Shown here: piece after piece, positions 10,501 through 44,732 of the stretch | How the letters are laid out: each line of letters starts with the position of its first letter | How positions within the stretch are numbered: position 1 is the stretch's first letter | IMG/VR virus record: IMGVR_UViG_3300045775_000006 | Location: 1 to 50,261 of that record | Length of the DNA stretch: 50,261 bases | Source of the DNA: a virus | Reading direction: 5' to 3' (one strand) | Notes under the pieces: generated by a model | Seen by the model: only the letters and a program-made list of their open reading frames with translations | What the model was told of the DNA's origin: nothing | Databases searched by the model: none | Made by a program: the position numbers and the translations under genes

Positions 10501-11073
10501 AAGCAGAAGTATGGCGTGGGCCTGCCGCTGATGAACGTACATCGCCAGGGCACACAGGATGTCCTTGAGGGTGGCATCAACCCGCGCGACAGGCTGCTTG
10601 CTGGCGACCAGAAGGGCACGCCTCCAATCAACCCGAAGATCCCGACGTATGGATCGCAGCAGGCTGGTGACTTCGCGCACAGCACAGTGCTGGATACGCA
10701 CGAGGCGCAGGGGCAGACGCTCGCGAGCCCATTCCATCCGTACTTCGCCGAGCAGGGTGGATTCAAGCCAGCCGAGTACGGCCCAGCTGAGCAGAACATG
10801 CTTAGCATCGCCAACGAGATGGGGATCGCTGGCGGTCAAGCGCAGGCTGGTCGCTGGTTCGGTGGCGGTGAGCTGACCGGTCTACTCAGTCCGCGCGGCG
10901 ACGCGCTAGACATGCTGGAGCGCCAGAGCGCTTATTCGCTGGGGAAAGCAGGCATGCCGGTTACCCCGCAGGCCGTGCGCTCCCACATCCTCAATCAGAT
11001 CCGAGGCACCCATGAGGTACCGGTGCTGCCGTGGTACCGCAAGAGCGACATGCCGGACTTCAGAACTCGATGA
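7585..11073 (+). CDS. Large polyvalent-type protein with GNAT-like and repeated domains
   Basis: This 1162-residue protein contains several modules. About residues 225-310 resemble a GNAT N-acetyltransferase core (VDPAYRGQGIGPKMLR at about 252). About 412-484 and 698-771 are two copies of one domain: both have HDF/HDIQNFM-type starts, an 'H(V/H)EPDF' core and end in 'IPTTP'. About 485-610 contain HYSNL...LDPAFYGTGMKGAEAKR, a signature I know from large polyvalent proteins of phages and mobile elements. The C-terminal 350 residues are unrecognised. It is probably carried in the virion and delivered with DNA, where the domains may act on host targets (inference). Its 3' end overlaps the convergent gene by 14 nt. 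Confidence 0.75.
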   Translation: MANLPRLDTDQMIADAHGLGEVARHLAKTLGVQALSGIKGLSVLPQGMDAAADAVRKYQEQYSPSMDLSPEGQQYIQHTVAPLYNGVKGSAAGKFASGLSSDYGQGVQQFSDLAGKYLGPQAAGAVGATGDVLPYLMTPEGMLGKDAVATAAKSAPELARAYDGSSLHSLANEGYAAKQRQGAAISVNKATDVGHPTAGLIGFHPDALVIDAHDPSDMSHVGRMVAEPSEDGSMLVGRGGGNGMGFGTDGIVDPAYRGQGIGPKMLRSGVDHAHSNGMDWGSDTQLSPGGVAMYMKLQEQGYPMEFNPTASITDDHYLKSGDGKPVLTVPKPTDPDTADLNEPTTFDPNSYIGSQAHAEGGLIGDELAKLVSHIAEKGGITKDMKTGAMPTSGYAVSVQKGLETKTPGQPTGHDIQNFMQTNQGPLSQPNEHFGVWKNPETGEHFMDVSHVEPDFATAVQKAKANNQLAIYDLGTGETIPTTPDYMHFEHYSNLNTPTANLDPAFYGTGMKGAEAKRGGTKVVSLYPAGATPEDELANKTKYRVTVPASSMYDMSNDPQGLRVNAPSYSDAEDAVKDAGYAGYHTPDHANPLMQGQARMFGPTPAVRVGPGAAEAAPADEDLSQGFAEGGEVAPALDDLGALVAKYADGAPNTHAAQLASTAADTGSVTYNPTSGEVHNSGYLVPSEPSRSVALGGPPDADEVHDFMLQNHEAFQSDPKAVLHVETGDDGSSYMHVAHHEPDFESAMQAAQSFDSPGVQELHTGTQIPTTPAAPAVSKGKQAAVIDVPYLSKTYGALEPQTPGGSMQTNMRNTPEAVQSRVDNARAFLAQPTEPWTPQTYAFDRSPIQDALQGWPGVEQSQFPRYQPTSRTDLSHLETLTTPENRDLIKQQIARGLPLGGETFYASLYPVAVEAEAAGIPRDQITRWIQGVAPGSARNSIYNQNAVGNMLHQMNARGIPLTPENVQAEMDAFKQKYGVGLPLMNVHRQGTQDVLEGGINPRDRLLAGDQKGTPPINPKIPTYGSQQAGDFAHSTVLDTHEAQGQTLASPFHPYFAEQGGFKPAEYGPAEQNMLSIANEMGIAGGQAQAGRWFGGGELTGLLSPRGDALDMLERQSAYSLGKAGMPVTPQAVRSHILNQIRGTHEVPVLPWYRKSDMPDFRTR

Positions 11074-11233
11074 TGTAGGAGCCGACAGGGTGCTGGCCCA
11101 CAGGGTCGCGCCCGTACGTCTGCAAGAACAGCGCGACGTACTCCTCGACTATCCCCCGCAGCTCATCTGTGAGCGGTAGCTCAAGATCGGTGTTGGCGTC
11201 GTATACCTGGTATTTCACTTTGTCGCGTTTCAC
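11060..11233 (-). CDS. Small hypothetical protein (57 aa)
   Basis: GTG start at 11233 in a GTGA overlap with the stop of the upstream gene (11230-11232), which argues for translational coupling. The protein is acidic, starts VKRDKVKYQVYDANTDLEL and has high third-position GC like its neighbours. It is the last gene of the leftward block, and its 3' end overlaps the convergent 1162-residue gene. Function unknown. Confidence 0.65.
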   Translation of the reverse strand: MKRDKVKYQVYDANTDLELPLTDELRGIVEEYVALFLQTYGRDPVGQHPVGSYIIEF

Positions 11234-11529
11234 GTGGGCGTCTTCGAGAACGGGACCTCGATCAGCGCTGGCTCTTCGAGCGGCGGTGCATCCGGCGACA
11301 CGTACTTAAACTCGTACTCCTGGGTCGACTTGTTGAACGAGATGTCGATGCTCGATCCCTGAGGGAGCGCGGTCAGCTCCGGGATCGACACGGTGAAGAT
11401 CTTGTCCGGCTGGTTGAACGCGATCAGCGACAGCATCAGCCGCATGTCGTCCGCAGCCTTCTCGGCCGCCGCGAGCATCGTCATCAGCTCGGTCGCGGTC
11501 GCGTTCTTCGTCCTGGGCTTCATGGCCAT
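11230..11529 (-). CDS. Hypothetical protein (99 aa)
   Basis: A 99-residue protein starting MAMKPRTKNATATELMTML, with a helical N-terminal half and a beta-rich C-terminal half (FTVSIPEL, IDISFNK, YEFKYV). The start directly follows the TAA of the small zinc-motif ORF, and its stop overlaps the next GTG. No family recognised. It belongs to the leftward early-type operon. Confidence 0.7.
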   Translation of the reverse strand: MAMKPRTKNATATELMTMLAAAEKAADDMRLMLSLIAFNQPDKIFTVSIPELTALPQGSSIDISFNKSTQEYEFKYVSPDAPPLEEPALIEVPFSKTPT

Positions 11530-15063: not shown

Positions 15064-15821
15064 GTGGTTCCTACCTGCTGCTGAACGTAGGCGTCCAGGT
15101 CGTCCTTCGTAGGAGCCGCCGAGGGCGCGTTCTTGATCGCGTCCGGCACCGCCAGCGTGGCGATGTCGAGGCCAGCGGCAGACTGCGCATTCAGATCCAC
15201 CGAGGTGAACGTCTTGCCAGCGATCTGGTTGGCGTTCTGTGTGTAGATCGATCCGGCGTAGCTCGATGCAGAGGCGAACGCGCGGGTGACACCGAGGTCG
15301 TTCGGCGCGAAGCTCATGACCTTGCCAGCGTTGAATCCGAGGTGGCTGCCGACGAGCCAGGCGTCCTGGTTGGCGCCCATGAACACGAAGTCCCAGGCGT
15401 ACTCGTCGGTCTGGTTCTTGATCGACGCCTTCACATTCTCGGCGTGATAGATGCGGGAGCTGTTCTCCTCGCCGTCGGTCACGATCACCACGAGCACCTT
15501 GCCCGGGCGGGACTCCTCGGGGAGCGCACGGAAGCGGACGCCGGTCTCGGAGATGGTCTGCCCCACCGCGTCATACAGGGCTGTGCCGTTGCCGTACGCC
15601 GGGCGGTAGTTCGCCTCGTTCAGCTCCATGCCTTCGAGCTTGGTGACGTAGTTGGAGAACGTGACCAGGTTGATCCGGACGTTCTGCTTGGCTGCCTTGG
15701 CGGCCGCGAGCTGGTCCTTCACAAAGGCGTTGACGCCTTGGATCGTTTCCTTGGTCTGGGGCTGCATCGACGGCGAGGCGTCAACGATCAGCGTGATGTC
15801 AGTCAGAAGTTTGTTGGTCAC
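15060..15821 (-). CDS. von Willebrand factor A domain protein
   Basis: 253 residues. The MIDAS metal site is complete: D-x-S-x-S at 14-18 (VDASPSM), Thr80 in NGTALYD and Asp116 in VTDGEEN. The Rossmann-like fold spans about 8-175; the last 70 residues are Ala/Gln-rich and unrecognised. vWA domains bind partners through a divalent ion and are found in metal-chelatase, ribonucleoprotein and bacterial stress systems. No AAA+ partner lies beside it; neighbours are the HD phosphohydrolase and a DUF1367-like protein. Role in the phage unknown. Confidence 0.85.
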   Translation of the reverse strand: MTNKLLTDITLIVDASPSMQPQTKETIQGVNAFVKDQLAAAKAAKQNVRINLVTFSNYVTKLEGMELNEANYRPAYGNGTALYDAVGQTISETGVRFRALPEESRPGKVLVVIVTDGEENSSRIYHAENVKASIKNQTDEYAWDFVFMGANQDAWLVGSHLGFNAGKVMSFAPNDLGVTRAFASASSYAGSIYTQNANQIAGKTFTSVDLNAQSAAGLDIATLAVPDAIKNAPSAAPTKDDLDAYVQQQVGTT

Positions 15822-21513: not shown

Positions 21514-21647
21514 AGAAACGGTACCGAGTGTTGAGTGGCGATGGCTTCGAGGAAGTCATCCGAACGGACCGCGGCACCGCGGAGAGCGACGTCGCTATCT
21601 TCCGCTGGCTCGGCAAGAAGGCATGGGTTGAGGAGATCGAGCGATGA
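21510..21647 (+). CDS. Small hypothetical protein (45 aa)
   Basis: GTG start at 21510 overlapping the VRR-NUC stop (GTGA). It encodes VKKRYRVLSGDGFEEVIRTD and onward, 45 residues, beta-rich. It overlaps the RNA ligase start by 4 nt. Coupled on both sides; function unknown. Confidence 0.55.
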   Translation: MKKRYRVLSGDGFEEVIRTDRGTAESDVAIFRWLGKKAWVEEIER

Positions 21648-22282
21648 TACAGTTCCAGGAGTTCCCCAAGATCCCGCGCTACCGGCGCGAGGTGGCAATT
21701 ACCGAGAAATTGGATGGCACCAACGCCGCCGTGGTGTGGACGCCGGTCAGCACCATGGAGCCGCCGGACGACAACATCATCGCCAGTCGCGTGCTGAAGG
21801 ATCAGCACGGCAATTCTGTCGGAGAGTACTGGCTCCTGGCTCAGTCCAGGCAGCGCTTCATCACGCCCTCGCGCGTTAAGCCGAAGAACGACAACTACGG
21901 ATTCGCGCAGTGGGTCGACGACAACATCAACGAACTGGCGAAGCTCGGCCCAGGCGTCCACTACGGCGAGTGGTGGGGCTACGGCATCCAGCGCGGCTAC
22001 GGCATACCCGAGAAACGCTTCAGCCTGTTCAACGTCAACCGCTGGGGCGACGGCAAGCAGCCGCTGCCCGCGTGCTGCCACGTGGTGCCGCTCATGGGGT
22101 ACTTTGGTCCGGACCAGATCAGCACCCAGGTCGAGCGGCTGCGCACACTGGGCAGCCTGGCGGCTCCGGGGTACATGAAGCCCGAGGGCATCATCGTCTT
22201 GCACAGCCAGTCGAAGCAGCACTACAAGATCCTCCTGGAGAACGACGAGATCTCCAAGAGTCAACGAGGGGAAGCAGCATGA
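21644..22282 (+). CDS. RNA ligase (adenylyltransferase family)
   Basis: 212 residues. Motif I EKLDGTN places the nucleotidyl lysine at 22. Downstream are GEWWGYGIQRGYG (motif III/IIIa region), a SLFNV strand, PEGIIVLHS (motif IV) and HYKIL (motif V). These are the motifs of small phage RNA ligases that seal nicked RNA after self-adenylation. In phages such enzymes repair tRNAs cut by host anticodon nucleases. The 25-tRNA array in the same genome makes that the favoured role. No kinase/phosphatase partner was found. Confidence 0.88.
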   Translation: MIQFQEFPKIPRYRREVAITEKLDGTNAAVVWTPVSTMEPPDDNIIASRVLKDQHGNSVGEYWLLAQSRQRFITPSRVKPKNDNYGFAQWVDDNINELAKLGPGVHYGEWWGYGIQRGYGIPEKRFSLFNVNRWGDGKQPLPACCHVVPLMGYFGPDQISTQVERLRTLGSLAAPGYMKPEGIIVLHSQSKQHYKILLENDEISKSQRGEAA

Positions 22283-34705: not shown

Positions 34706-34989
34706 CCGAAGAGACGCTAGTCAAGGCAGCCATCGCCGCGCACAACGCACTGGATGCCTGTGGGCTCAAGGTGATTCTGTGCCGGAATGCGATGAACACC
34801 GACGCCGTGCGCCGCGACCTGTGGAACATGTGCACCTGGTTCACCAGCGAGGCACTGTGGATGTATGACAATGGGGAAGAGACGGCCGCGCGGAACCTGG
34901 CGCTGGTGGCCAACCTACTGAGTGAGCACCTGAAGTTTGCACGTGAGCTGCGCGAGAAACCAGATGCGTGCAAGCCTCAGACCTCGTAG
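34687..34989 (+). CDS. Hypothetical helical protein (100 aa)
   Basis: 100 residues, helical (ETLVKAAIAAHNALDACGLK; TAARNLALVANLLSEHLKFA). It overlaps the terminase start by 22 nt, so translation of both may be coupled. No family recognised. Confidence 0.55.
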   Translation: MERYPVTEETLVKAAIAAHNALDACGLKVILCRNAMNTDAVRRDLWNMCTWFTSEALWMYDNGEETAARNLALVANLLSEHLKFARELREKPDACKPQTS

Positions 34990-36506
34990 AGATCGGCCTC
35001 CAGAAGGGGTTCAGCAAGGATCAGGTATCGTCGGCCCTCCGCGGCCTCGGTGACGATGAGGTCGAGCGCCTGGCGTGGATGGTCAAGTGGGTAGACCAGC
35101 GCCACGAGTTCCAGGTAGTCCCCGAAGGCAACTGGTCGAACTGGCTGGCGCTCGCCGGACGCGGTAGCGGCAAGACCAGACTCGGTGCCGAGTGGACCGG
35201 GATGAATGCCGCCATGGCCGTCGCAGGAGACCGTAGCCTGGTCGTGGCGCCTACCAAGGCCGATCTAAGGGACGTGTGCTTCGAGGGAGACAGCGGCCTC
35301 GTCCGTACGATCCCGAGCGCCCTGGTGCGGTACTACCACAAGTCGCCCAGCCCGCAGGTTATGCTGCACAACGGCGCGATGATCGGTGGGATCGCCGCAG
35401 CCAGCTTCGAGCGCACCCGCGGACCGCAGTGGAACCGTGCCTGGTGCGACGAGGTAGCCGCCTGGGGTGAGGACGGCAAGATCGACCCCGAAGAGGTCTG
35501 GGACACGATGGTGTTCTCGGTCCGCCTGGGCCAGGACACGCGCATCCTTGCGACCACGACGCCGCGACCGAAGCCGCTGATCAAGATGCTGGTGAAAGAC
35601 CCAGACACCGTGATCACGACCGCGACGACGATGGTCAACCTCGACAACCTCTCGCCCGAGTTCGCGCGCCGCATCCTGCGCTACCAGGGCACGAAGATCG
35701 GTCGCCAGGAGATCTACGCCGAGCTGATCGACGCCGAAGAGGGCGGCATCATCAACCGCAGCTGGCTGCGCCTGTGGCCGCACGACAAGCCGCTGCCGAT
35801 GTTCCACTACATCGTGGCGAGCATCGACCCGGCGTTCAGCGAGGAGGCGTACGACAAGAAGAAGCAGGTGACCGACCCGAGCGCGATGTCGGTGTGGGGC
35901 TGCTTCAAGCTGCCGAACGGCAAGCCCGGCGTGATGCTGCTCGATTGCTGGGCTGAGCGGCTGGGGCTGCCTGACCTGGTCAAGAAGGTGATCAACGAGA
36001 CAGACCGCACGAAGGTGCGCTACGGACAGAGCGACCGCCGACCGCTCATCTCGCCGACCAAGGGACCGCGCGCTACGATGGACGTCGGTCGACCGGTGGA
36101 CCTGATCGTGATCGAGGGCAAGGCGAGCGGCAAGTCGCTGCGTCAGTACCTCGCGAAGGCTGGGATCTTCACCCAGGAGTTCAATCCTGGCATGGCCGAC
36201 AAGCTCACCCGCGGGCATGTCGTCTCGCCCATCGCCAAGGATGGTATAATTTGGGTGCCTGAGTCTCCCAGCCGTCCTGGGAAGCCGATGACCTGGGCAG
36301 AACCCCTTGTCGAACAAGTCTGTAGCTACTCTGGCCCGGGCAGCGTGGTGCACGACGACCTGTACGACACGACCACCCAGGCGTGGCGCGTGATCGACTG
36401 GCAGTGGCTGCACTACCTGGAGGTCGAGGCGAGTCGCAAGAAGAAGATCGGTCCAGACACAGAAGCCCGCGCTCGGCGCGTCAACCAGAACCCATACGCA
36501 GCGTAA
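34968..36506 (+). CDS. Terminase large subunit
   Basis: 512 residues from a GTG inside the end of the upstream gene. Walker A LAGRGSGKTR (62-71), adenine/Q-type region GNWSNWLAL, Walker B WCDEVAAW, coupling motif LATTTPR, and the nuclease domain ASIDPAFSEE with acidic DLIVIEGKASGK and VHDDLYDTTTQA. This is the two-domain ATPase-nuclease that packages DNA into the prohead. The nearest downstream gene is the portal, its docking partner (4-nt gap). It has normal length for the family. Confidence 0.95.
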   Translation: MQASDLVEIGLQKGFSKDQVSSALRGLGDDEVERLAWMVKWVDQRHEFQVVPEGNWSNWLALAGRGSGKTRLGAEWTGMNAAMAVAGDRSLVVAPTKADLRDVCFEGDSGLVRTIPSALVRYYHKSPSPQVMLHNGAMIGGIAAASFERTRGPQWNRAWCDEVAAWGEDGKIDPEEVWDTMVFSVRLGQDTRILATTTPRPKPLIKMLVKDPDTVITTATTMVNLDNLSPEFARRILRYQGTKIGRQEIYAELIDAEEGGIINRSWLRLWPHDKPLPMFHYIVASIDPAFSEEAYDKKKQVTDPSAMSVWGCFKLPNGKPGVMLLDCWAERLGLPDLVKKVINETDRTKVRYGQSDRRPLISPTKGPRATMDVGRPVDLIVIEGKASGKSLRQYLAKAGIFTQEFNPGMADKLTRGHVVSPIAKDGIIWVPESPSRPGKPMTWAEPLVEQVCSYSGPGSVVHDDLYDTTTQAWRVIDWQWLHYLEVEASRKKKIGPDTEARARRVNQNPYAA

Positions 36507-36509
36507 CCC

Positions 36510-39179
36510 ATGCCCAGCGAAAGCCAGATCCTGCAAGGATTCGACCTCGAAGATCCAGAGGACGATCCGAAGACCGACATCGCGACGGACGCGGCTGAGC
36601 GCTCACAGGGTAAGGTTCCGGATGATGCTGACACCGAGGAGCTGGATGACGGCAGCGCGATCCTGACGCTGCACGACAACCGTGAGGTGAAGAAGGCCAA
36701 GGAGTTCTACGTCAACCTGGCCGACGGCGAGATCCCTGACGACTTCCTGCGCACGCTCGCCGTTGAGCTGCTCGACCTGTTCGACAAGGACGTGCTCGCC
36801 CGTGAGCAGCGCGACAAGCAGTACGAGGAAGGTCTCAAGCGCACAGGGTTCGGGAACGACGCGCCCGGTGGCGCTCAGTTCGAAGGCGCCAGCAAGGTGG
36901 TGCACCCGATGATCGCCGAGGTGGCCATCGACTTCAGCGCCAGAAGCATCAAGGAGCTGTGGCCCGCTGGTGGACCGTGCAAGGACAAGATCATCGGCGA
37001 GCCGGACGACAAGAAGGAGGAGAAGGCCAAGCGCAAGGTGCGCTACATGAACTGGCAGATGACCGAGCAGATGCCGTCCATGCGGTACGAGATCGAGCAG
37101 ATCCTCACGCAAGTCCCGATGGGCGGCGTGCAGTACTCCAAACTCTGGTGGGACGTCAAGCGCCGTCGACCGGTGCACGAGCCGGTGTGGGTCGACGAGA
37201 TTGTGCTGCCGTTCTCGGCTACAGACTACTACAGCTCGCCGCGCAAGGCTCACGTCCAGAAGCTCGACGAGTTCACCTTCGACGACCGTGTGCGCAACGG
37301 CATCTACCGCGATGTCGACACCATCAGCATCGTCACAGCTCCCGACCAGACACAGGCTGAGAAGGCCAACGACAAGATCGAAGGCAAGAGCCTGCAGCCG
37401 GAGAACGTCGACGGCCAGCGCGTGGTGATCGAGTTCGCGGTGCAGTACGTGGTGCCTGACAGCTACCGCGGCATCGAGGACATCAACGACACCGACGAGG
37501 GCCCGGCGCCGTACCTGATCAGCATCGACAAGGCGACCCGCAGTGTCCTGTCCATCTACCGAAACTGGGATGAAGATGATGAGCACATGGATGAGCTTGT
37601 CCACATTGTGGAATGGCCATTCCTTCCTTGGCGAGGTGCCATGCCAATCGGCGCTCCACAAGTCCTGGGAGGCATTGCCGCTGCCGCGACGGGAGCGCTT
37701 CGCGCCCTTCTCGATAGCGCCCTCATCAATAACTTCCCAGGCGGCGTGCACCTCAAGAGCGGCCCGGTCAGTGGCCAGAACATCCGCGTAGAGGCTGGGC
37801 AGACGAATGAGATCGACGGCGGCATCATGCAGGATGACATCCGCAAGACCTTCATGCCGACGCCGGTCAACCCGACCAGCCAAGTCCTGTTCAACCTCCT
37901 GGAGTACCTGGTAGACAGTGGCAAAGAGATCGTCAAGACAACCCTGGATGAAGCAAATGACAATGCGAACGTACCAGTTGGCACAACTATGGCCCGAATT
38001 GAGCAACAGATGGTGGTGTTCTCAGCCATTCATTCGCGTCTGCACAATGCTATGGGTAAACTGCTCAAGGTTCTTCACCGGCTAGATGCGACCTACCTTG
38101 AGGACAACGACGTCGTCTCGCAGACCGGCGAGAAGATGGTGTTCAAGGCCGACTTCGACGCGCCGGACGACGTCATCCCGGTCAGCGACCCAGAGATCTT
38201 CAGCGAGCTGCAGCGCATCGCCCAGGTGCAGACCGTAGCCCAGCGCGCGCAGCTGTTCCCTCAGCTCTACGACCAGCGCAAGGTCGAGTCCGCGATCCTG
38301 AAGATGATGAAGATCACGAACCCGGAGCAGTACCTTGTACCGAAGCCCGAGCCGAAGCCGCTCAACGCCGCCAACGAAAATATTGCCGCATCCCTTGGTC
38401 AGCCAATCACAGCTTTCCCCGACCAGGACCATCTGGCGCATATCCAGTCGCACATGGCTTTCCTTGAAGACCCGCTATTCGGGGCGAATCCCCTCATGGC
38501 GGCTCAGGCTATTGGTGGCATCCTTCAGAACGTCAAAGAGCACATGCTGTTCTGGTACGGGACCGAGATCCACCGCATCGCTAGCGAGGCTGCGGGCACA
38601 GACATCTCGGAGTTTATGACGATCAAGGACGCCGAGGTCCAGACGAAGTTCGACGGCATGCTCGCCGCGGCGACACAGCACGTGCACGTGTTCAGCCAGC
38701 AGGTATTCAGCAAGCTGCCTCCAGCGATCCAGAAGGCGCAGCAGATGCTCAAGCAGTACTCGCCGCCCCCACCGGTCGACCCGGGCCAGGTGGCGCAGCA
38801 GAAGGTCAGCGCCGACACCCAGATCGCCCAGGGTCAGCAGGAGATCGACAAGCAGAAGCTCCAGCAGGAGGCGCAGAACGACGCACAGCAGGTCGCGCTC
38901 CAGCAGGCCGAGCAGGCTCAGGGTGGCCAGCAGCACGCCGCCGAGCTGCAGAGCGACCAGACGATTGCGGCCGGTGGCAACCAGACCGACCTGCAGAAGC
39001 AGTCCATGGGCGACCAGACGAAGCAGGCCGTGGTACAATCCCAAGACGCAACCAAGCTCACTGTCACCGCGGAAGACAACAACACCGCCGAGACCATCGC
39101 AGGCGCCGAAATGGCAGCGGGCAAGCACACCAACATCTCAGACGGCCAGGCCGTCGGTAAGAAGAGCCCCACAGTATGA
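36510..39179 (+). CDS. Portal protein
   Basis: 889 residues, long as in podovirus-type portals. An acidic N-terminus (1-60) precedes a core with GASKVVHPMIAEVAIDFSAR, WPFLPWRGAMPIG and LLDSALINNFPGG, phrases typical of these portals. The C-terminus (about 740-889) is a long Gln/Ala-rich helix and low-complexity tail (QQ, QAEQAQ). Portals form the dodecameric DNA channel. Codon use changes along the gene: several patches (for example 37541-37735 and 37900-38100) use many A/T-ending codons. Confidence 0.9.
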   Translation: MPSESQILQGFDLEDPEDDPKTDIATDAAERSQGKVPDDADTEELDDGSAILTLHDNREVKKAKEFYVNLADGEIPDDFLRTLAVELLDLFDKDVLAREQRDKQYEEGLKRTGFGNDAPGGAQFEGASKVVHPMIAEVAIDFSARSIKELWPAGGPCKDKIIGEPDDKKEEKAKRKVRYMNWQMTEQMPSMRYEIEQILTQVPMGGVQYSKLWWDVKRRRPVHEPVWVDEIVLPFSATDYYSSPRKAHVQKLDEFTFDDRVRNGIYRDVDTISIVTAPDQTQAEKANDKIEGKSLQPENVDGQRVVIEFAVQYVVPDSYRGIEDINDTDEGPAPYLISIDKATRSVLSIYRNWDEDDEHMDELVHIVEWPFLPWRGAMPIGAPQVLGGIAAAATGALRALLDSALINNFPGGVHLKSGPVSGQNIRVEAGQTNEIDGGIMQDDIRKTFMPTPVNPTSQVLFNLLEYLVDSGKEIVKTTLDEANDNANVPVGTTMARIEQQMVVFSAIHSRLHNAMGKLLKVLHRLDATYLEDNDVVSQTGEKMVFKADFDAPDDVIPVSDPEIFSELQRIAQVQTVAQRAQLFPQLYDQRKVESAILKMMKITNPEQYLVPKPEPKPLNAANENIAASLGQPITAFPDQDHLAHIQSHMAFLEDPLFGANPLMAAQAIGGILQNVKEHMLFWYGTEIHRIASEAAGTDISEFMTIKDAEVQTKFDGMLAAATQHVHVFSQQVFSKLPPAIQKAQQMLKQYSPPPPVDPGQVAQQKVSADTQIAQGQQEIDKQKLQQEAQNDAQQVALQQAEQAQGGQQHAAELQSDQTIAAGGNQTDLQKQSMGDQTKQAVVQSQDATKLTVTAEDNNTAETIAGAEMAAGKHTNISDGQAVGKKSPTV

Positions 39180-39721: not shown

Positions 39722-39899
39722 CTACCTCAAGAAAGCGCGCGACAGGCAAGTGATGGATGGACTGAACCCGGTGTCACCTGGCATCGACGTCACGTACGAG
39801 TTTGGCCGCCGCATAGGCAACCGCATCGGCATGGATTACATGCTCCTGTTGGCTGACAAGTTCTTCAACGACGACGAATCAAAGGATGACAAACTGTGA
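39687..39899 (+). CDS. Hypothetical protein (70 aa)
   Basis: GTG start at 39687 with AAGGTGAG upstream; an ATG at 39702 (MHAKLLDYLKKARDRQ) is an alternative. Helical, acidic C-terminus. It ends in TGATGG overlapping the endonuclease VII-like start. Function unknown. Confidence 0.55.
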   Translation: MRTSEMHAKLLDYLKKARDRQVMDGLNPVSPGIDVTYEFGRRIGNRIGMDYMLLLADKFFNDDESKDDKL

Positions 39900-40288
39900 T
39901 GGACCTGGAGCTGTCCCGTTGGGATAAGTGCCGTTCCACGGAGATACATCGCAAGAAGCTGGCTGGTAAGGTGATGGGCGCGGATACGCCGCAGTACAGG
40001 GTCAGGTTGCAGGGCTGGATCGCTCGTGGCTTGCCGCTCCCAACTCGCGTTGAACCCACTGAGTGTGAGTTGTGCCATGAGCCATTCGGAAGACACGGAT
40101 CGCAGCTGGATCACTGTCACTCTACCGGCACATTTCGGGGGTGGCTGTGCAAGGGTTGCAACACCGGACTGGGGCTGCTGGGAGACGATCTGGAGTCCAT
40201 AAAGTTGGCGCTCGCGTACCTGCGCAGACACCAAATTGAGACGCGCGTCAAAGAATCTGAACCATCGGAGTCAATCGGTCATGACTAG
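39899..40288 (+). CDS. Recombination endonuclease VII-like protein
   Basis: 129 residues from the ATG at 39899. CELC (56-59), QLDHCHSTGTFRGWLC (Asp71-His72 catalytic, His74) and KGCNTGLG (Cys84, Cys87, Asn88) form the HNH/treble-clef layout of phage T4 endonuclease VII. It should resolve branched DNA, clearing junctions before or during packaging. Its place beside the portal and terminase fits that role. A basic N-terminal helix precedes the core. Confidence 0.85.
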   Translation: MDLELSRWDKCRSTEIHRKKLAGKVMGADTPQYRVRLQGWIARGLPLPTRVEPTECELCHEPFGRHGSQLDHCHSTGTFRGWLCKGCNTGLGLLGDDLESIKLALAYLRRHQIETRVKESEPSESIGHD

Positions 40289-40751
40289 TCTTACCAAGCT
40301 CAAGGTTTCTACGATTCTCGATCAAACGCTGGACGAGGCGTTCCCAGCCGTCGACCCAGGCACCGAGCCGTTCGGGTCGCTGGTTCTCCTGCAGATCAAG
40401 GCTGCGGCCACCAAGACCAAGGGCGGGCTGATCCTCAGCGACAACACCATCGAGACCGAGGCCGACAACACGAAGGTCGCCAAGGTGCTCGCATGCGGGC
40501 CGCTGGCGTTCCACGACCGCGCGACCAAGACCCCGTGGCCCGAAGGCGCCTGGTGCCAGCCCGGTGAGTTCGTCCGCATCGGCCTGTACGGTGGCGACCG
40601 CTGGCGCGTCTGCTACGACACGGTCAAGGTCAAGGACCGCGACGGCCGCGTGATCCGCGAGCAGAAGGTCTACGCCGAGTTTGCGCTCCTCGAAGACCTG
40701 GTGCTCAAGGGCCGCGTGAAGGACCCGCTGGCAGCCCTGGCGTTCATCTGA
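40281..40751 (+). CDS. GroES-like co-chaperonin
   Basis: 156 residues from the ATG at 40281. PFGSLVLLQIKAAATKTKGGLILSD has the GroES opening strand and mobile-loop pattern (V.........K..GGI.L.D). It continues with AKVLACGP (family 'G.V.A.G.G'), a PGEFVRIG strand and AEFALLEDLVLKGRV at the end ('....i....DILA'). It is longer than bacterial GroES (about 97), with an insertion around 85-130. It sits next to the head genes, so it probably works with host GroEL to fold capsid proteins. Confidence 0.75.
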   Translation: MTSLTKLKVSTILDQTLDEAFPAVDPGTEPFGSLVLLQIKAAATKTKGGLILSDNTIETEADNTKVAKVLACGPLAFHDRATKTPWPEGAWCQPGEFVRIGLYGGDRWRVCYDTVKVKDRDGRVIREQKVYAEFALLEDLVLKGRVKDPLAALAFI

Positions 40752-41172: not shown

Positions 41173-41321
41173 GCGAGAAGAAGCCAGCAAGGCCAAACAG
41201 CCGGTGGGCGCACGGCAAGCGCCGCGAGCTGGACGAGGCGGCCGCAAAGAAGGCCGGGTGGCCGTCGAACCTGCGCGAAGAAAAAGGTTGGCACCGCGGC
41301 GTACGGGTAAGGTATAATTGA
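41169..41321 (+). CDS. Small basic protein (50 aa) before tRNA array
   Basis: GTG at 41169 in a GTGA overlap; VSEKKPARPNSRWAHGKRRE, very basic and Trp-containing. Third codon positions are mostly G/C in this frame, unlike the competing frame from 41120 (65 codons). The TATAAT at 41313-41318 overlaps its last codons and starts the tRNA transcript. Confidence 0.5.
   Translation: MSEKKPARPNSRWAHGKRRELDEAAAKKAGWPSNLREEKGWHRGVRVRYN
41288..41318 (+). promoter_or_regulatory. Candidate promoter of the tRNA array
   Basis: TATAAT (41313-41318) preceded by TTGGCA (41288-41293) at a long 19-nt spacing. The first tRNA begins 81 nt downstream; the 41322-41398 leader contains no gene that I can see. Confidence 0.55.
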
Positions 41322-41398
41322 CGGTGACGGCTAGCATCCGTTTCTAACTGCTCCACGCGGCCACAACCGCCAACGCTGGGAAGAGCAGCGATCAATCT

Positions 41399-41474
41399 CA
41401 GGAATTAAGTCAGCGGCCAGACAGCCACGCTTGGAACGTGGAAGCCGCAGGTTCGAATCCTGCATTCCTGACCA
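41399..41474 (+). tRNA. tRNA-Pro (TGG)
   Basis: Acceptor CAGGAAT/ATTCCTG, anticodon stem CCACG/CGTGG with loop CTTGGAA, T arm GCAGG-TTCGAAT-CCTGC, encoded CCA. First of the array. Confidence 0.9.
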
Positions 41475-41478
41475 CATT

Positions 41479-41553
41479 GATGCCCTGGCCGAGAGGCTTA
41501 GGCAGCGGCCTGCAAAGCCGCGAACGTCGGTTCGAATCCGACGGGCATCTCCA
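41479..41553 (+). tRNA. tRNA-Cys (GCA)
   Basis: Acceptor GATGCCC/GGGCATC, anticodon stem GCGGC/GCCGC with loop CTGCAAA, T arm GTCGG-TTCGAAT-CCGAC, discriminator T, encoded CCA. Confidence 0.92.
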
Positions 41554-41558
41554 CAATT

Positions 41559-41631
41559 GGGCTGCGAGCAAGGCACTCGCGCATGCCTTGCAAGCAAGCT
41601 GTGCTGGGTGCGAGTCCCAGGCGGTCCACCA
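41559..41631 (+). tRNA. tRNA-Ala (TGC)
   Basis: Acceptor GGGCTGC/GCGGTCC (two wobble pairs), anticodon loop CTTGCAA in a stem with one A-A mismatch, T stem CTGGG/CCCAG, encoded CCA. The T loop reads TGCGAGT instead of the usual TTC start. Confidence 0.8.
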
Positions 41632-41636
41632 AATAA

Positions 41637-41710
41637 GCGGGGTTGGTCTAGAGGCTGGGCCTCTGCCTTCCAAGCAGAAGAGGCGGGTTCAAGTCCCGCA
41701 CTCCGCTCCA
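41637..41710 (+). tRNA. tRNA-Gly (TCC)
   Basis: Acceptor GCGGGGT/ACTCCGC, anticodon stem TCTGC/GCAGA with loop CTTCCAA, T arm GCGGG-TTCAAGT-CCCGC, encoded CCA. Confidence 0.92.
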
Positions 41711-41717
41711 CGATTAC

Positions 41718-41789
41718 GCTTCCACACCAGGGGTGGAGCAGCACTGTCGATGCTGTGAGCGGCGGGTTCGAGTCCCGCTGGGAGCGCCA
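41718..41789 (+). tRNA. tRNA-Asp (GTC)
   Basis: Acceptor GCTTCCA/TGGGAGC, anticodon stem CAGCA/TGCTG with loop CTGTCGA, T arm GCGGG-TTCGAGT-CCCGC, discriminator G, encoded CCA. The D arm is short (CC-AGGGGT-GG). Confidence 0.85.
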
Positions 41790-41794
41790 CCAAT

Positions 41795-41871
41795 GCCTTC
41801 GTGACCGGAACTGGACACGGCGTGGTTTTCTAGTCCACGATATGCAGGTTCGAATCCTGTCGAGGGCTCCA
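41795..41871 (+). tRNA. tRNA-Arg (TCT)
   Basis: Acceptor GCCTTCG/CGAGGGC, T arm GCAGG-TTCGAAT-CCTGT, encoded CCA. The anticodon arm is GTGGT-TTTCTAG-TCCAC, which puts TCT at the anticodon and A at 37, as expected for AGA readers. Shifting the loop by one would give CTA (amber), but the variable loop then becomes abnormal. Confidence 0.78.
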
Positions 41872-41872
41872 A

Positions 41873-41902
41873 TTGACACGGTAACATCGGCGATGTTATT
41901 GT
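41873..41902 (+). promoter_or_regulatory. Possible internal promoter in tRNA array
   Basis: TTGACA (41873-41878) with TATTGT (41897-41902) 18 nt downstream, in the 52-nt spacer before tRNA-His. A TAACATC-GGC-GATGTTA hairpin overlaps it. Confidence 0.4.
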
Positions 41903-41923
41903 GCGCGGCTTGAGTCATTCGGA

Positions 41924-41999
41924 GTGGCTGTACCCAAGTAGTTAAGGGAGGACGCTGTGACCGTCCGACGCATGGGTGCAAATCCCATCAGTCACCCCA
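41924..41999 (+). tRNA. tRNA-His (GTG)
   Basis: Acceptor GTGGCTG/CAGTCAC, anticodon stem GGACG/CGTCC with loop CTGTGAC, T arm ATGGG-TGCAAAT-CCCAT, discriminator C as in bacterial tRNA-His, encoded CCA. The base before position 1 is A, not the usual G. Confidence 0.88.
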
Positions 42000-42002
42000 A
42001 AT

Positions 42003-42077
42003 GGCTCGCTAGCTGAGATGGATTAGCGGCTCCCTGAAAAGGAGCAGAGCGAGGCTCGATACCTCGGAGAGCCACCA
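42003..42077 (+). tRNA. tRNA-Phe (GAA)
   Basis: Acceptor GGCTCGC/GAGAGCC with one mismatch, anticodon stem GCTCC/GGAGC with loop CTGAAAA, T stem CGAGG/CCTCG, encoded CCA. T loop CTCGATA is unusual. Confidence 0.85.
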
Positions 42078-42086
42078 AGTTTAAAC

Positions 42087-42157
42087 GGCCCACGCGCAGA
42101 GCGCAGCGAGATTTTACACGTCACGCGGGCGAGGTTTGAGTCCTCGGTGAGCCACCA
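42087..42157 (+). tRNA. tRNA-Val (TAC), degenerate
   Basis: Acceptor GGCCCAC/GTGAGCC (one mismatch), T arm CGAGG-TTTGAGT-CCTCG and encoded CCA are clear. The anticodon arm GAGAT-TTTACAC-GTCAC gives TAC with one A-A mismatch. The D arm is only about 12 nt with a 2-bp stem, so folding may depend on the T arm. A GTTTAAAC octamer lies directly upstream. Confidence 0.6.
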
Positions 42158-42166
42158 AAGTTTTAC

Positions 42167-42244
42167 TGGCACTTAGCGTTCATGGCGAGTGCGCCGCACT
42201 GTTAATGCGGAATGAGCCTGGTTCGATCCCAGGAGTGCCAGCCA
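42167..42244 (+). tRNA. tRNA-Asn (GTT)
   Basis: Acceptor TGGCACT/AGTGCCA, anticodon stem CCGCA/TGCGG with loop CTGTTAA, T arm CCTGG-TTCGATC-CCAGG, discriminator G, encoded CCA. Confidence 0.92.
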
Positions 42245-42250
42245 ATTTAT

Positions 42251-42327
42251 GCCCTTGTAGCTCCAACGGCAGAGCAGCCGCCTTGTAAGCGGACGGATGC
42301 GGGTTCAAATCCATGCCTAGGGCACCA
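42251..42327 (+). tRNA. tRNA-Thr (TGT), odd T arm
   Basis: Acceptor GCCCTTG/CTAGGGC (one mismatch), D stem GCTC/GAGC, anticodon stem CCGC/GCGG with loop CTTGTAA, encoded CCA. The T arm GCGGG-TTCAAATC-CATGC needs an 8-nt loop and has a G-A mismatch. Confidence 0.8.
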
Positions 42328-42332
42328 TGTTT

Positions 42333-42408
42333 GGCGGGTTATTTCAGCAGCAGAATACTGGCCTCATAAGCCAAGTGGTCACAGGTGCAAGTCCTGTACC
42401 CGCTACCA
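42333..42408 (+). tRNA. tRNA-Met (CAT), elongator or Ile2
   Basis: Acceptor GGCGGGT/ACCCGCT, anticodon stem TGGC/GCCA with loop CTCATAA, T arm ACAGG-TGCAAGT-CCTGT, encoded CCA. It lacks the initiator signature (unpaired 1-72, three G-C pairs in the anticodon stem). CAT could be elongator Met or lysidine-modified Ile. Confidence 0.85.
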
Positions 42409-42415
42409 AGATTAT

Positions 42416-42489
42416 TCACGGTTCGTCTAATGGCAGGACAGCAGCCTCTGAAGCTGCCCATGGTGGTTCGAGTCCATCACTGTGAACCA
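42416..42489 (+). tRNA. tRNA-Gln (CTG)
   Basis: Acceptor TCACGGT/ACTGTGA, anticodon stem GCAGC/GCTGC with loop CTCTGAA, T arm GGTGG-TTCGAGT-CCATC, encoded CCA. Close relative of the next gene, suggesting duplication. Confidence 0.92.
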
Positions 42490-42495
42490 ATTTAT

Positions 42496-42569
42496 TCACT
42501 GATCGTCTAACGGCAGGACAGCTGGCTTTGAACCAGCGTGTGGTGGTTCGAGTCCATCTCGGTGATCCA
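42496..42569 (+). tRNA. tRNA-Gln (TTG)
   Basis: Acceptor TCACTGA/TCGGTGA, anticodon stem GCTGG/CCAGC with loop CTTTGAA, T arm similar to the upstream tRNA-Gln(CTG), encoded CCA. D arm and T arm are nearly identical to that gene. Confidence 0.92.
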
Positions 42570-42573
42570 ATTT

Positions 42574-42649
42574 GCGCGGATAGCTCAGTTGGAAGAGCAG
42601 TCGACCGATAATCGACAGGCCGCTGGTTCGAGCCCAGCTCCACGCACCA
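42574..42649 (+). tRNA. tRNA-Ile (GAT) with C33
   Basis: Acceptor GCGCGGA/TCCACGC (one mismatch), D stem GCTC/GAGC, T arm GCTGG-TTCGAGC-CCAGC, encoded CCA. The anticodon arm GTCGA-CCGATAA-TCGAC is perfect and puts C rather than the near-universal T at position 33, before GAT. Confidence 0.85.
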
Positions 42650-42656
42650 AGTATTT

Positions 42657-42732
42657 GCGGATGTCGCATAGAGGCAATTGCGCGACCTTGCCAAGGTCGA
42701 TACCGTGGGTTCGAGTCCCATCGTCCGCTCCA
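42657..42732 (+). tRNA. tRNA-Gly (GCC)
   Basis: Acceptor GCGGATG/CGTCCGC, anticodon stem CGACC/GGTCG with loop TTGCCAA, T arm GTGGG-TTCGAGT-CCCAT, encoded CCA. Confidence 0.92.
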
Positions 42733-42736
42733 ATTT

Positions 42737-42820
42737 GCGCTGCTGGTGGAACGGCAGACACACCGCGCTTAGAACGCGGCGCCTTCGGGCATGAGGGTTC
42801 AAGTCCTTCGCGGCGCACCA
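42737..42820 (+). tRNA. tRNA-Leu (TAG)
   Basis: Class II with a variable arm built around GCC-TTC-GGGC. Acceptor GCGCTGC/GCGGCGC, anticodon stem CCGCG/CGCGG with loop CTTAGAA, T arm GAGGG-TTCAAGT-CCTTC, discriminator A, encoded CCA. Confidence 0.92.
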
Positions 42821-42826
42821 AGATAC

Positions 42827-42897
42827 GAGGCGGTCCTTCAGGAAGGTCCCGGTCTCCAAAACCGATAAAGGGGGTTCGACTCCCTCCTGCTTCGCCA
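42827..42897 (+). tRNA. tRNA-Trp (CCA)
   Basis: Acceptor GAGGCGG/CTGCTTC with wobble pairs, anticodon stem CGGT/ACCG with loop CTCCAAA, T arm GGGGG-TTCGACT-CCCTC, discriminator G, encoded CCA. Confidence 0.88.
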
Positions 42898-42902
42898 ACC
42901 AT

Positions 42903-42994
42903 GGATGTTTGGGTGAGTGGCTCAAACCAGCTGTTTGCTAAACAGCCCGCGGCGTAACTGCCGTGCGAAGGTTCGAATCCTTCAGCATCCGCCA
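42903..42994 (+). tRNA. tRNA-Ser (GCT)
   Basis: Class II, long variable arm. Acceptor GGATGTT/AGCATCC, anticodon stem GCTGT/ACAGC with loop TTGCTAA, T arm GAAGG-TTCGAAT-CCTTC, discriminator G, encoded CCA. Confidence 0.92.
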
Positions 42995-42999
42995 ACAAC

Positions 43000-43072
43000 G
43001 CCTCGTCCGTCGGACGCGGAGCAGACGCTACGAACGACTGCGAGGTAGGTTCGAATCCTACACGGGGCACCA
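43000..43072 (+). tRNA. tRNA-Arg (ACG)
   Basis: Acceptor GCCTCGT/ACGGGGC, anticodon arm AGACG-CTACGAA-CGACT with one A-A mismatch, T arm GTAGG-TTCGAAT-CCTAC, encoded CCA. ACG needs host TadA to make inosine. Confidence 0.85.
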
Positions 43073-43076
43073 ACAT

Positions 43077-43151
43077 GAATCGTTGGGTTTCTGGTGAGAC
43101 CCGCAGGCTTTCAACCTGCAGAGATGGGTTCGATCCCCATACGATTCTCCA
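43077..43151 (+). tRNA. tRNA-Glu (TTC)
   Basis: Acceptor GAATCGT/ACGATTC, anticodon stem GCAGG/CCTGC with loop CTTTCAA, T arm ATGGG-TTCGATC-CCCAT, encoded CCA. Confidence 0.92.
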
Positions 43152-43155
43152 ACAT

Positions 43156-43244
43156 GGGCTCGTCGCCAAGAGGCCGACGGCACCCGGCTCTTAACCGGAT
43201 GAGCGCAAGCTCCACCGCTGGTTCGACTCCAGCCGGGCCCACCA
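43156..43244 (+). tRNA. tRNA-Lys (CTT) with class II-like variable arm
   Basis: Acceptor GGGCTCG/CGGGCCC, anticodon stem CCGG/CCGG with loop CTCTTAA (CTT), T arm GCTGG-TTCGACT-CCAGC, discriminator A, encoded CCA. Between anticodon and T arms are 17 nt including a perfect GAGC-GCAA-GCTC hairpin. Bacterial tRNA-Lys is normally class I. Confidence 0.8.
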
Positions 43245-43307
43245 CCGCGTATAACCGCAGCGCCCTGCAACCGAGGCGTGGCGACAAAAATTTCGGTTAT
43301 CTATTTC

Positions 43308-43383
43308 GGGGTCGTAACTCAGCTGGATAGAGTCACGCCTTTTAAGCGCAGAGATGTAGGTTCGATTCCTACCGGCCCCACCA
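43308..43383 (+). tRNA. tRNA-Lys (TTT)
   Basis: Acceptor GGGGTCG/CGGCCCC, D stem ACTC/GAGT, anticodon loop CTTTTAA in a weak stem (CGC/GCG only), T arm GTAGG-TTCGATT-CCTAC, encoded CCA. The 63-nt spacer upstream shows no further tRNA. Confidence 0.88.
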
Positions 43384-43406
43384 ATTTGATGTTGTACAAT
43401 ACACGA

Positions 43407-43495
43407 GGATGGTGCCGCTAGGTTGGCTGGCAACTGGCTTCGAAACCCAGGGTACGCTCAACGGTGTAAGGGTTCGACTCCTTCACCATCCGCCA
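43407..43495 (+). tRNA. tRNA-Ser (CGA)
   Basis: Class II. Acceptor GGATGGT/ACCATCC, anticodon stem CTGG/CCAG with loop region TTCGAAA (CGA), long variable arm, T stem AAGGG/CCTTC, discriminator G, encoded CCA. Confidence 0.85.
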
Positions 43496-43499
43496 ATTC

Positions 43500-43585
43500 G
43501 GGTTGATAAACGTCTACGGAGAACGCCCCGGCTGTAAACCGGGTGTCTCGCGACTCGCTAGGTTCGACTCCTAGTCAGCCCACCA
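43500..43585 (+). tRNA. tRNA-Tyr (GTA)
   Basis: Class II. Acceptor GGGTTGA/TCAGCCC, anticodon stem CCCGG/CCGGG with loop CTGTAAA, T arm CTAGG-TTCGACT-CCTAG, discriminator A, encoded CCA. Last of the array. Confidence 0.92.
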
Positions 43586-43617: not shown

Positions 43618-43687
43618 CTGCTTCTCCAAAAAGCAGTACTCCACATGCTGCCCATATTGGGCACGACGATACCCTCGCAGGGTATTT
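43618..43687 (+). promoter_or_regulatory. Three small hairpins between tRNA array and head genes
   Basis: CTGCTT/AAGCAG (43618-43636), TGCCCA-TAT-TGGGCA (43649-43663) and ATACCC-TCGCA-GGGTAT (43669-43685, then TT) are perfect 6-bp stems in series. They may act in termination, processing of the tRNA transcript or as operators. No T-run is present, so strong termination is unlikely. Confidence 0.45.
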
Positions 43688-43709
43688 GACTGCAACCAGG
43701 AAGACTCTC

Positions 43710-44732
43710 ATGCCGAAGCTCGGACACGAAGACGATGGCGATCAGGACCAGGATCAATCAGTAGCCCTTGAGGGTAACGCCGAAGCACGGCAGAATGACC
43801 CCGATGCACCCAACGAAGAAAACGAAGACCAGGTTGTCGTCGTCGCAGAAGAAGGCGACCGTCGCCTCAACGCGGACGCTACTGATTCTGATCAAGATGA
43901 TGATGGTGACGCAGGGGCCAACCGCGGTCGCAAGCGTGAGACGGCACGTGAACGCCGCGAGAGAGCACGGCTTGCCAAGGAACGCGACAAGCTTGAAATT
44001 GATCTGCTGCGTCGGACCACAGCCAAGCAGGACGCCCGCCTCCAGGAGCTAGAACGCTCACTTACTGTGACACGCGTCACAGACTTGGATTCTCGCCTGG
44101 CGACGGAGCTTGCGACCGCCGACCAGATGGACAAGGTGTTCGGCGCCGCGATCACTGCCAAGAACGGTGACGACGCGCGCCGCGCCGCGCAACTGCGCGA
44201 TGAGGCCAAGCAGCGCGCCTGGAACATCCACAACGAGAAGCAGGCCATCCTCCAGCAGGCCAACCAGCGCGACAATGCGCCGCAGGCCGTCCCCTACCAG
44301 GCCAAGGCCATTGACTTCCTGAAGGACAAGCAATGGTACAATCCACAGGCAGGCGATGAGGACTCTCTCGTGGTCGAGGCCCTGGACAAGGCGCTCTCGA
44401 AGCAGATGAACCCCAACGACCCCAACTACTGGGACACCCTGGACAAGAAGGTTCGAGCGCGACTGCCTCACCGCTTCCAGCAATCCCAGCGCGACGATAG
44501 CAACGACGACGACGGCGAGGACGACAGCGACCCAGCCCCACGTCAGCAGTCTCGCCGAGGACCCCCGACAGGCGGCTCAAGCCGCGACCGTTCAGGTGGC
44601 AACCCTCGTCAGTACGTTCTCCCGGCCGAGATGGTCTCGGCGATGAAGGAGGCGGGGCACTGGGATGACCCGAAGACACGCCAGCGTGTAGCCAAGCGCT
44701 ACATCGACGGCCTCAAGAACAACCGCGGCTAA
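43710..44732 (+). CDS. Scaffold-like head protein
   Basis: 340 residues from the ATG at 43710 (AGGAAG upstream). The N-terminal 85 residues are strongly acidic, about 85-140 are a basic coiled coil (RETARERRERARLAKERDKL), about 140-205 are helical, and acidic D-runs (DDDGEDDSD) precede a basic C-terminal helix (AKRYIDGLKN). Acidic helical proteins with a basic C-terminal capsid-binding helix, encoded between portal and capsid, are typical scaffolds. Assignment is by composition and place. The first third uses many A/T-ending codons. Confidence 0.65.
   Translation: MPKLGHEDDGDQDQDQSVALEGNAEARQNDPDAPNEENEDQVVVVAEEGDRRLNADATDSDQDDDGDAGANRGRKRETARERRERARLAKERDKLEIDLLRRTTAKQDARLQELERSLTVTRVTDLDSRLATELATADQMDKVFGAAITAKNGDDARRAAQLRDEAKQRAWNIHNEKQAILQQANQRDNAPQAVPYQAKAIDFLKDKQWYNPQAGDEDSLVVEALDKALSKQMNPNDPNYWDTLDKKVRARLPHRFQQSQRDDSNDDDGEDDSDPAPRQQSRRGPPTGGSSRDRSGGNPRQYVLPAEMVSAMKEAGHWDDPKTRQRVAKRYIDGLKNNRG

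Follow-up and report, generated by a model that had tools for sequence, protein, structure and literature searches.

Why phages carry tRNA genes has been an open question for decades. A 2019 survey of virus genomes (Morgado and Vicente), whose clusters lie in genomes of 72-617 kb at about 2-10 tRNA genes per kb, described eight with a complete set of isotypes; the podoviruses in it had at most 23 tRNA genes (PMC6409571). Xanthomonas phage XacN1, a 384 kb jumbo myovirus, carries 56 tRNAs for 20 amino acids in its terminal repeats (PMC5852040), and the siphovirus T5 (about 122 kb) has 24 (PMC12409363) or 25 (PMC13015707). Caulobacter phage Ccr5 and phiCbK relatives (about 220 kb) carry large arrays, with tRNAs for 13-16 amino acids in the phages described in PMC3556154. 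Here we analyse a stretch of viral DNA of 50,261 nucleotides (IMG/VR record IMGVR_UViG_3300045775_000006, hereafter the window), in which an array of 25 tRNA genes occupies positions 41399-43585 of the + strand. An earlier note on this DNA, made from its letters alone, had called a complete isotype set rare, and the eight clusters of the survey bear this out.

Larger phages (at least 72 kb) were already known to carry complete arrays, and the array of the window is a new, extreme case, unusually small and dense. With 25 genes in 2.187 kb it falls within the definition of a phage tRNA cluster (at least 15 genes and at least 2 per kb; PMC6409571), and it shares with the surveyed clusters a high gene density and a complete isotype set, but its phage is smaller (about 60 kb, judging by the 59-62 kb contigs of relatives and by the genomes of named ones, which are close to 62 kb) and the array is denser, with 11.4 genes per kb. 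XacN1 likewise covers all 20 amino acids and T5 has a similar number of tRNAs, whereas the Ccr5 group, which also has large arrays, shares only short stretches of similarity with the window; no near-identical array was found in named phages, only such short stretches. Even a phage of only some 60 kb has room for a complete decoding set. The reading that we prefer, and to which we give an even chance, is that the array is a dedicated tRNA operon that insures translation in a small, probably lytic, uncultured tailed phage against cleavage or depletion of host tRNAs, codon tuning being a second benefit.

Gene content and quality of the tRNA array

At default settings, ARAGORN finds 21 tRNAs in the window, every one on the + strand within 41399-43585. 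At a threshold of 90%, it adds just Ala(tgc), Val(tac), Glu(ttc) and Ser(cga), which fill the remaining gaps, and the resulting 25 genes, whose anticodons span 20 amino acids, are exactly the list that the earlier note had drawn up for about 2.2 kb. Two controls were run at the same threshold: the remaining 48 kb of the window gave 7 calls, each of them on the - strand, and shuffling of the array left 0.06 calls on average. Since the four added + strand calls fall exactly in the gaps, these controls rule out chance and over-prediction. The Rfam tRNA model returns 19 genes above its cut-off, Glu (52 bits) among them. The genes are as follows.

41399-41474, + strand: tRNA-Pro(TGG); ARAGORN, Rfam 59.1 bits; A73
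41479-41553, + strand: tRNA-Cys(GCA); ARAGORN, Rfam; U73
41559-41631, + strand: tRNA-Ala(TGC), short D-arm; ARAGORN only at 90%; G3:U70, A73
41637-41710, + strand: tRNA-Gly(TCC); ARAGORN, Rfam; U73
41718-41789, + strand: tRNA-Asp(GTC), short D-arm; ARAGORN, absent from Rfam tables; G73
41795-41871, + strand: tRNA-Arg(TCT); ARAGORN, Rfam 35 bits
41924-41999, + strand: tRNA-His(GTG); ARAGORN, Rfam; C73, A at -1
42003-42077, + strand: tRNA-Phe(GAA); ARAGORN, Rfam 43 bits
42087-42157, + strand: tRNA-Val(TAC), weakest call, truncated D-arm; ARAGORN only at 90%; T-loop TTTGAGT
42167-42244, + strand: tRNA-Asn(GTT), ordinary variable loop; ARAGORN, Rfam; G73
42251-42327, + strand: tRNA-Thr(TGT), imperfect T-stem, G39; ARAGORN, Rfam
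42333-42408, + strand: tRNA-Met(CAT), elongator-like; ARAGORN, Rfam; G1 pairs with U72
42416-42489, + strand: tRNA-Gln(CTG); ARAGORN, Rfam
42496-42569, + strand: tRNA-Gln(TTG); ARAGORN, Rfam
42574-42649, + strand: tRNA-Ile(GAT); ARAGORN, Rfam 62.7 bits
42657-42732, + strand: tRNA-Gly(GCC); ARAGORN, Rfam
42737-42820, + strand: tRNA-Leu(TAG); ARAGORN, Rfam
42827-42897, + strand: tRNA-Trp(CCA), short D-arm; ARAGORN, Rfam 31.9 bits
42903-42994, + strand: tRNA-Ser(GCT); ARAGORN, Rfam
43000-43072, + strand: tRNA-Arg(ACG), short D-arm; ARAGORN
43077-43151, + strand: tRNA-Glu(TTC); Rfam 52.3 bits, ARAGORN at 90%
43156-43244, + strand: tRNA-Lys(CTT), 17-nucleotide class-II-type variable arm, A73; ARAGORN, Rfam
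43308-43383, + strand: tRNA-Lys(TTT), G39; ARAGORN, Rfam
43407-43495, + strand: tRNA-Ser(CGA), long arm, G73; ARAGORN at 90%
43500-43585, + strand: tRNA-Tyr(GTA); ARAGORN

The tRNAs take up 1935 of the 2187 bases; spacers have a median of 5 nucleotides, and three gaps are longer (52, 63 and 23 nucleotides). All 25 genes encode their CCA end, as had been claimed. Every isotype is present once or twice and the anticodons are distinct; those with two are Gly, Arg, Gln, Lys and Ser. The claim that all 20 isotypes are represented holds at the 90% threshold only: ARAGORN defaults alone give 17 and the addition of Rfam's Glu gives 18, so that the full 20 require both Ala and Val. The weaker calls are those of Ala, Val, Glu and Ser(CGA), and Val is doubtful: its D-arm is truncated, its acceptor and anticodon stems have mismatches, it lacks C56, and it may be degenerate.

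Cloverleaf parsing shows at least 6 of 7 acceptor-stem pairs in all 25 genes. A G3:U70 pair together with A73 specifies alanine, and the Ala gene carries both. The discriminator base is the usual bacterial one in 21 of the 25 genes. Arg(TCT), the two Gln genes and Glu deviate, and the Gln and Glu genes of Ccr5 have the same bases as those here. The D-arm is short in Ala, Asp, Val, Trp and Arg(ACG), and the weak point of Thr is its T-stem. The Trp genes of relatives also have short D-arms and a similar short-D Ala, with G3:U70, is found in Caulobacter phage Ccr5, indicating that short D-arms are in part a conserved style and not decay only. The neighbouring Gln(CTG) and Gln(TTG) genes are 81% identical and represent a local duplication. 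Misassembly is unlikely, as a second IMG/VR contig (L013/L172), 99.89% identical to the window over 22.7 kb, has the same array with zero differences inside it. As a separate observation, tRNA-His has A at position -1 (41923-41924) despite C73; bacterial tRNA-His usually has G there.

Decoding capacity

Codon usage was sampled in 23 genes (8797 codons; G+C fraction at third codon positions, 0.81). If U34 reads whole boxes, the array reads 54 of the 61 sense codons and 97.7% of the sampled phage codons; TCC, TCT, TCA, CGG, TTA, TTG and ATA are unread even under this relaxed wobble. Under strict wobble, 44 codons and 79.7% of the sampled usage are readable. No aminoacyl-tRNA synthetase was seen among the open reading frames (ORFs) scanned and, judging from these, charging must use host synthetases. 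The near-independence from host tRNA that the earlier note proposed is plausible for decoding but only partly supported, given the strict figure, the elongator-like Met and the need for host synthetases.

These numbers bear on the possibility that the array does nothing but supply codons and amino acids, speeding the translation of late proteins in a phage with a strong preference for G- or C-ending codons. AAG makes up 93% of Lys codons and CAG 86% of Gln codons, for which CTT and CTG anticodons are present, and the additional anticodons of Lys, Gln and Ser (CTT, CTG and CGA) suit heavily used codons, making some codon tuning likely. The readability of about 98% of sampled codons under relaxed wobble and the location of the array within a block of structural genes also agree with this explanation. 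However, Met and Trp, which have one codon each and hence no synonymous codons, are included and are exactly the tRNAs kept by relatives, so that codon choice cannot explain this core; a complete set exceeds what codon bias would select; and the Ala, Val, Thr, Pro and Leu boxes are served by a U34 tRNA only, despite the dominance of C- and G-ending codons. We therefore regard supply as the sole function as rather unlikely.

Expansion of a conserved tRNA locus

The window phage is podovirus-like and distantly related to Caulobacter phage RLK; among named phages, its portal is closest to those of Caulobacter phages RW, KcrB, RLK and GB2A (44.6% identity, about 62 kb). The array lies between two anchor genes.

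40236-40751, + strand: GroES-like co-chaperonin gene, left anchor (phrog_3188); kept upstream of the tRNA locus in relatives
43686-44732, + strand: scaffold-like gene, right anchor, named from its position; no family match; 60-66% identical in eight relatives

The local order, which places the array within the structural gene block, is terminase (34968-36506), portal (36510-39179, of the head-to-tail-connector type), GroES-like gene, array, scaffold-like gene and major head protein. RLK has the GroES-like and scaffold-like genes in common with the window; it differs in that its single annotated tRNA gene, for Val, lies between portal and terminase, and ARAGORN finds no tRNA in RLK.

In eight closer relatives, the slot between the two anchors holds few tRNA genes: Met alone in L016, L018, L019 and L023, Met and Trp in L015, L021 and L101, and Met, Pro, Asn and Trp in L200. 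The portals of these relatives are 72-81% identical to that of the window where compared, with the exception of L101 (47%). The presence of 1, 2 or 4 tRNAs at the same spot indicates that the array is a local expansion, and one slot with 1, 2, 4 or 25 tRNAs in close relatives provides a natural test of codon tuning against replacement. Two features of the relatives' loci were seen in passing. The Met tRNA (L021:15738-15814; L200:1380-1454) has an initiator-like acceptor stem (GCGGGG/CCCCGC in L021), yet a U1:A72 pair, and could be an initiator variant. Between tRNAs of L015 (about 15215-15290) and L200 (about 1618-1677) are stretches ending GGGTCCACCA that resemble tRNA remnants.

Such a history might also be largely neutral, the slot being a recombination hotspot at which duplicated and captured tRNA genes pile up, many of them already in decay. 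The variable content of the slot in relatives, with remnants ending in CCACCA, a nearby gene for an HNH protein resembling endonuclease VII, the five short-D tRNAs and the poor Val would all be expected on this account. It does not sit well with isotypes present once or twice each, distinct anticodons, CCA encoded in all 25 genes and discriminators that fit the isotypes. Nor does it sit well with L507 (IMGVR_UViG_3300048502_000010, 43.8 kb), from the same metagenome as L015, L021 and L101, whose array at 8984-11397 has 24 tRNAs by ARAGORN default and 25, all on the + strand and of 20 isotypes, at the 90% threshold. Compared with 24 proteins of the window, L507 showed no protein similarity over the 14.8 kb examined, and thus complete sets in small phages probably arose more than once, L507 having arrived at an equal number of genes and the same isotypes. 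We consider neutral accumulation improbable.

A possible role in counter-defence

The preferred reading, insurance against the loss of host tRNAs, would run as follows. A one- or two-gene locus (Met, Trp) has grown, in part through local duplication, to a decoding set that is complete yet almost minimal. A long precursor, probably transcribed from an upstream promoter, would be processed by host RNases to tRNAs that already carry CCA and that host synthetases would charge, so that phage translation would be sustained once anti-phage tRNases cleave host tRNAs or these are otherwise depleted. The long-arm Lys, the Lys(TTT) and Thr with changed anticodon stems and the short-D tRNAs may be cleaved less readily than those of the host. 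The presence of all 20 isotypes fits a general need for replacement.

T5 and T6 provide precedents for tRNAs as counter-defence (PMC12409363, PMC11555353, PMC13096335). The host tRNAs that the PARIS nuclease AriB cleaves are Lys(UUU), Thr(UGU) and Asn(GUU), and infection is rescued by the T5 variants of all three (PMC12409363); T5 tRNA-Tyr overcomes retron-Eco7 (PMC11555353, PMC13096335). The T5 tRNAs are thus a tested precedent for evading both systems, function having been tested in T5 only. Mycobacteriophage tRNAs have anticodon-loop changes (PMC10264068). The resistant Lys of T5 is without the UAAU(36-39) signature of AriB targets (PMC12409363), and in the window this signature is absent from Lys(TTT) and Thr(TGT), both with G39, and from Lys(CTT), with C39, while Asn retains it. 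Among the 41 bacterial Lys(TTT) matches listed, position 39 was T in 33, C in 8 and G in none; for Thr(TGT), the pattern matched in only 2 of 40 genomes. A further gene that may be relevant is the following.

21644-22282, + strand: RNA ligase with KLDG motif (PF09414, E=6e-8; phrog_548, E=5e-24); kept in L205 and L206

Its activity is predicted from the profile match and the KxDG nucleotidyltransferase motif, and a PDB sequence search returned no relative. The ligase is a possible RNA-repair partner of the array, and together with the changed tRNAs it would fit replacement or repair of cleaved tRNAs. The degradation of host tRNAs that the earlier note had suggested is plausible in view of this predicted ligase, the altered anticodon stems and the unusual tRNA shapes.

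A complete isotype set would likewise be required if host tRNAs were lost generally because the phage itself, or its takeover of the cell, degrades them, with the array replacing all. This is quite unlikely, as the ORFs scanned include no recognisable tRNase, and 1-2 tRNAs suffice for relatives that share the gene order.

Several points weigh against the counter-defence role itself. The RNA ligase does not track the array, since it is also present in L206, from the same contig as the single-tRNA L016, and the ORFs scanned showed neither a recognisable tRNase nor a polynucleotide kinase. AriB has been studied in E. coli and may not apply to the host of the window phage; a search for that host through portal homologues in genome contigs gave just two distant contigs of metagenome-assembled genomes (Rubrivivax, Rhodocyclaceae), which are uninformative. 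The comparison of position 39 sets the array against the bacterial matches listed, not against the tRNAs of its own host. Transcription, processing, charging and nuclease resistance are steps that we infer, and the poor Val and the other four short-D tRNAs also count against this role.

Long variable arms in phage tRNAs

A long variable arm is normally found only in Leu, Ser, Tyr and Sec tRNAs. The variable arm of Lys(CTT) in the array has 17 nucleotides and so lies within class II (more than 10 nucleotides), while its CTT anticodon, A73 and Lys-like loop CTCTTAA place it outside canonical class II. The same Lys architecture is present in Ccr5, L112, L181 and L182. BLAST and pattern scans of named phages showed long-arm Asn in XacN1, 7t3, Aes508 and Psa21, long-arm Lys in Ccr5, where both Lys(CTT) and Lys(TTT) are of this kind, and long-arm Met in Kaldavass and Carin1; IMG/VR holds many long-arm Asn and some long-arm Lys genes. 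In samples drawn without regard to arm length, the long arm occurs in 10 of the 107 distinct phage Asn genes listed and in 9 of the 83 for Lys(CTT), an estimate of about 10% from first hits. Long-arm Thr, Cys, Trp, Met and other isotypes were also seen in loci chosen for their long-arm Asn.

In bacteria, a first pattern with a fixed T-arm gave 0 of 299 genomes and was replaced as too narrow. Its successor, which covers Asn, one phylum and one T-loop form, found no long-arm Asn in 200 Pseudomonadota genomes; with ordinary spacing, the same pattern matched in 33 of 40 bacterial genomes, serving as a positive control. No description of long-arm phage tRNA-Asn or tRNA-Lys was found in the literature, most subscription journals lying outside the search, and the review PMC7609411 does not mention phages.

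One could suppose that the long-arm Lys(CTT) is a recoding tRNA that is charged with Ser, Leu or Tyr and inserts it at AAG, given that its long arm and D-loop resemble those of class II tRNAs. Its A73 and Lys-like loop speak otherwise, and G73 is present in all 48 phage long-arm Asn genes with encoded CCA among the matches listed, indicating that discriminators follow the anticodon. Moreover, AAG accounts for 93% of Lys codons, so that recoding would be ruinous. We judge recoding highly unlikely. Rather, we put forward, tentatively and with less than even confidence, that Lys(CTT) belongs to a recurrent, unrecognised kind of phage tRNA that is class-II-shaped, has Asn, Lys or occasionally another class I identity, is missing from bacterial chromosomes and would act as a tRNase-resistant replacement. 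If this is true, long-arm Asn and Lys would represent a previously unnoticed way of building such tRNAs, and long-arm tRNAs offer a concrete lead to how phage tRNAs evade defence nucleases.

Regulatory elements and neighbouring genes

Four noncoding features were read in or next to the array.

41288-41318, + strand: putative array promoter, TTGGCA-19 nt-TATAAT, read from sequence
41352-41394, + strand: conserved noncoding leader immediately 5' of tRNA-Pro; identity 95% to L021 and L101, 91% over 32 nucleotides to L016
41873-41902, + strand: candidate internal promoter, TTGACA-18-TATTGT, in the 52-nucleotide gap; consensus scan, 10/12 bases
43244-43299, + strand: noncoding element inside the array; 96% identical in L021 (15888-15943)

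The element at 41288-41318 is likely the promoter of the array; the corresponding position in relatives carries a TAGAAT box, in most cases as part of an extended -10 (TGnTAGAAT). About one match of the quality of the candidate internal promoter is expected by chance in the region. No intrinsic terminator was found 3' of the array. The core of the 43244-43299 element is also present in L200 (about 1759-1812), just upstream of tRNA-Trp; in relatives the element precedes tRNA-Trp, and in the window it precedes tRNA-Lys(TTT). Conservation of the leader and of this element (95-96%) holds for some relatives only, and strongly folded RNAs were rejected for both, their fold energies being no better than those of shuffles.

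Two neighbouring genes were noted in addition. The HNH protein resembling endonuclease VII is encoded at 39896-40288, upstream of the array; similar genes are variably placed in relatives, and the gene may be mobile. Further upstream, an ORF at 33012-33527 matches PagL, a lipid A 3-O-deacylase (E=6e-7), which is unexpected in a phage.

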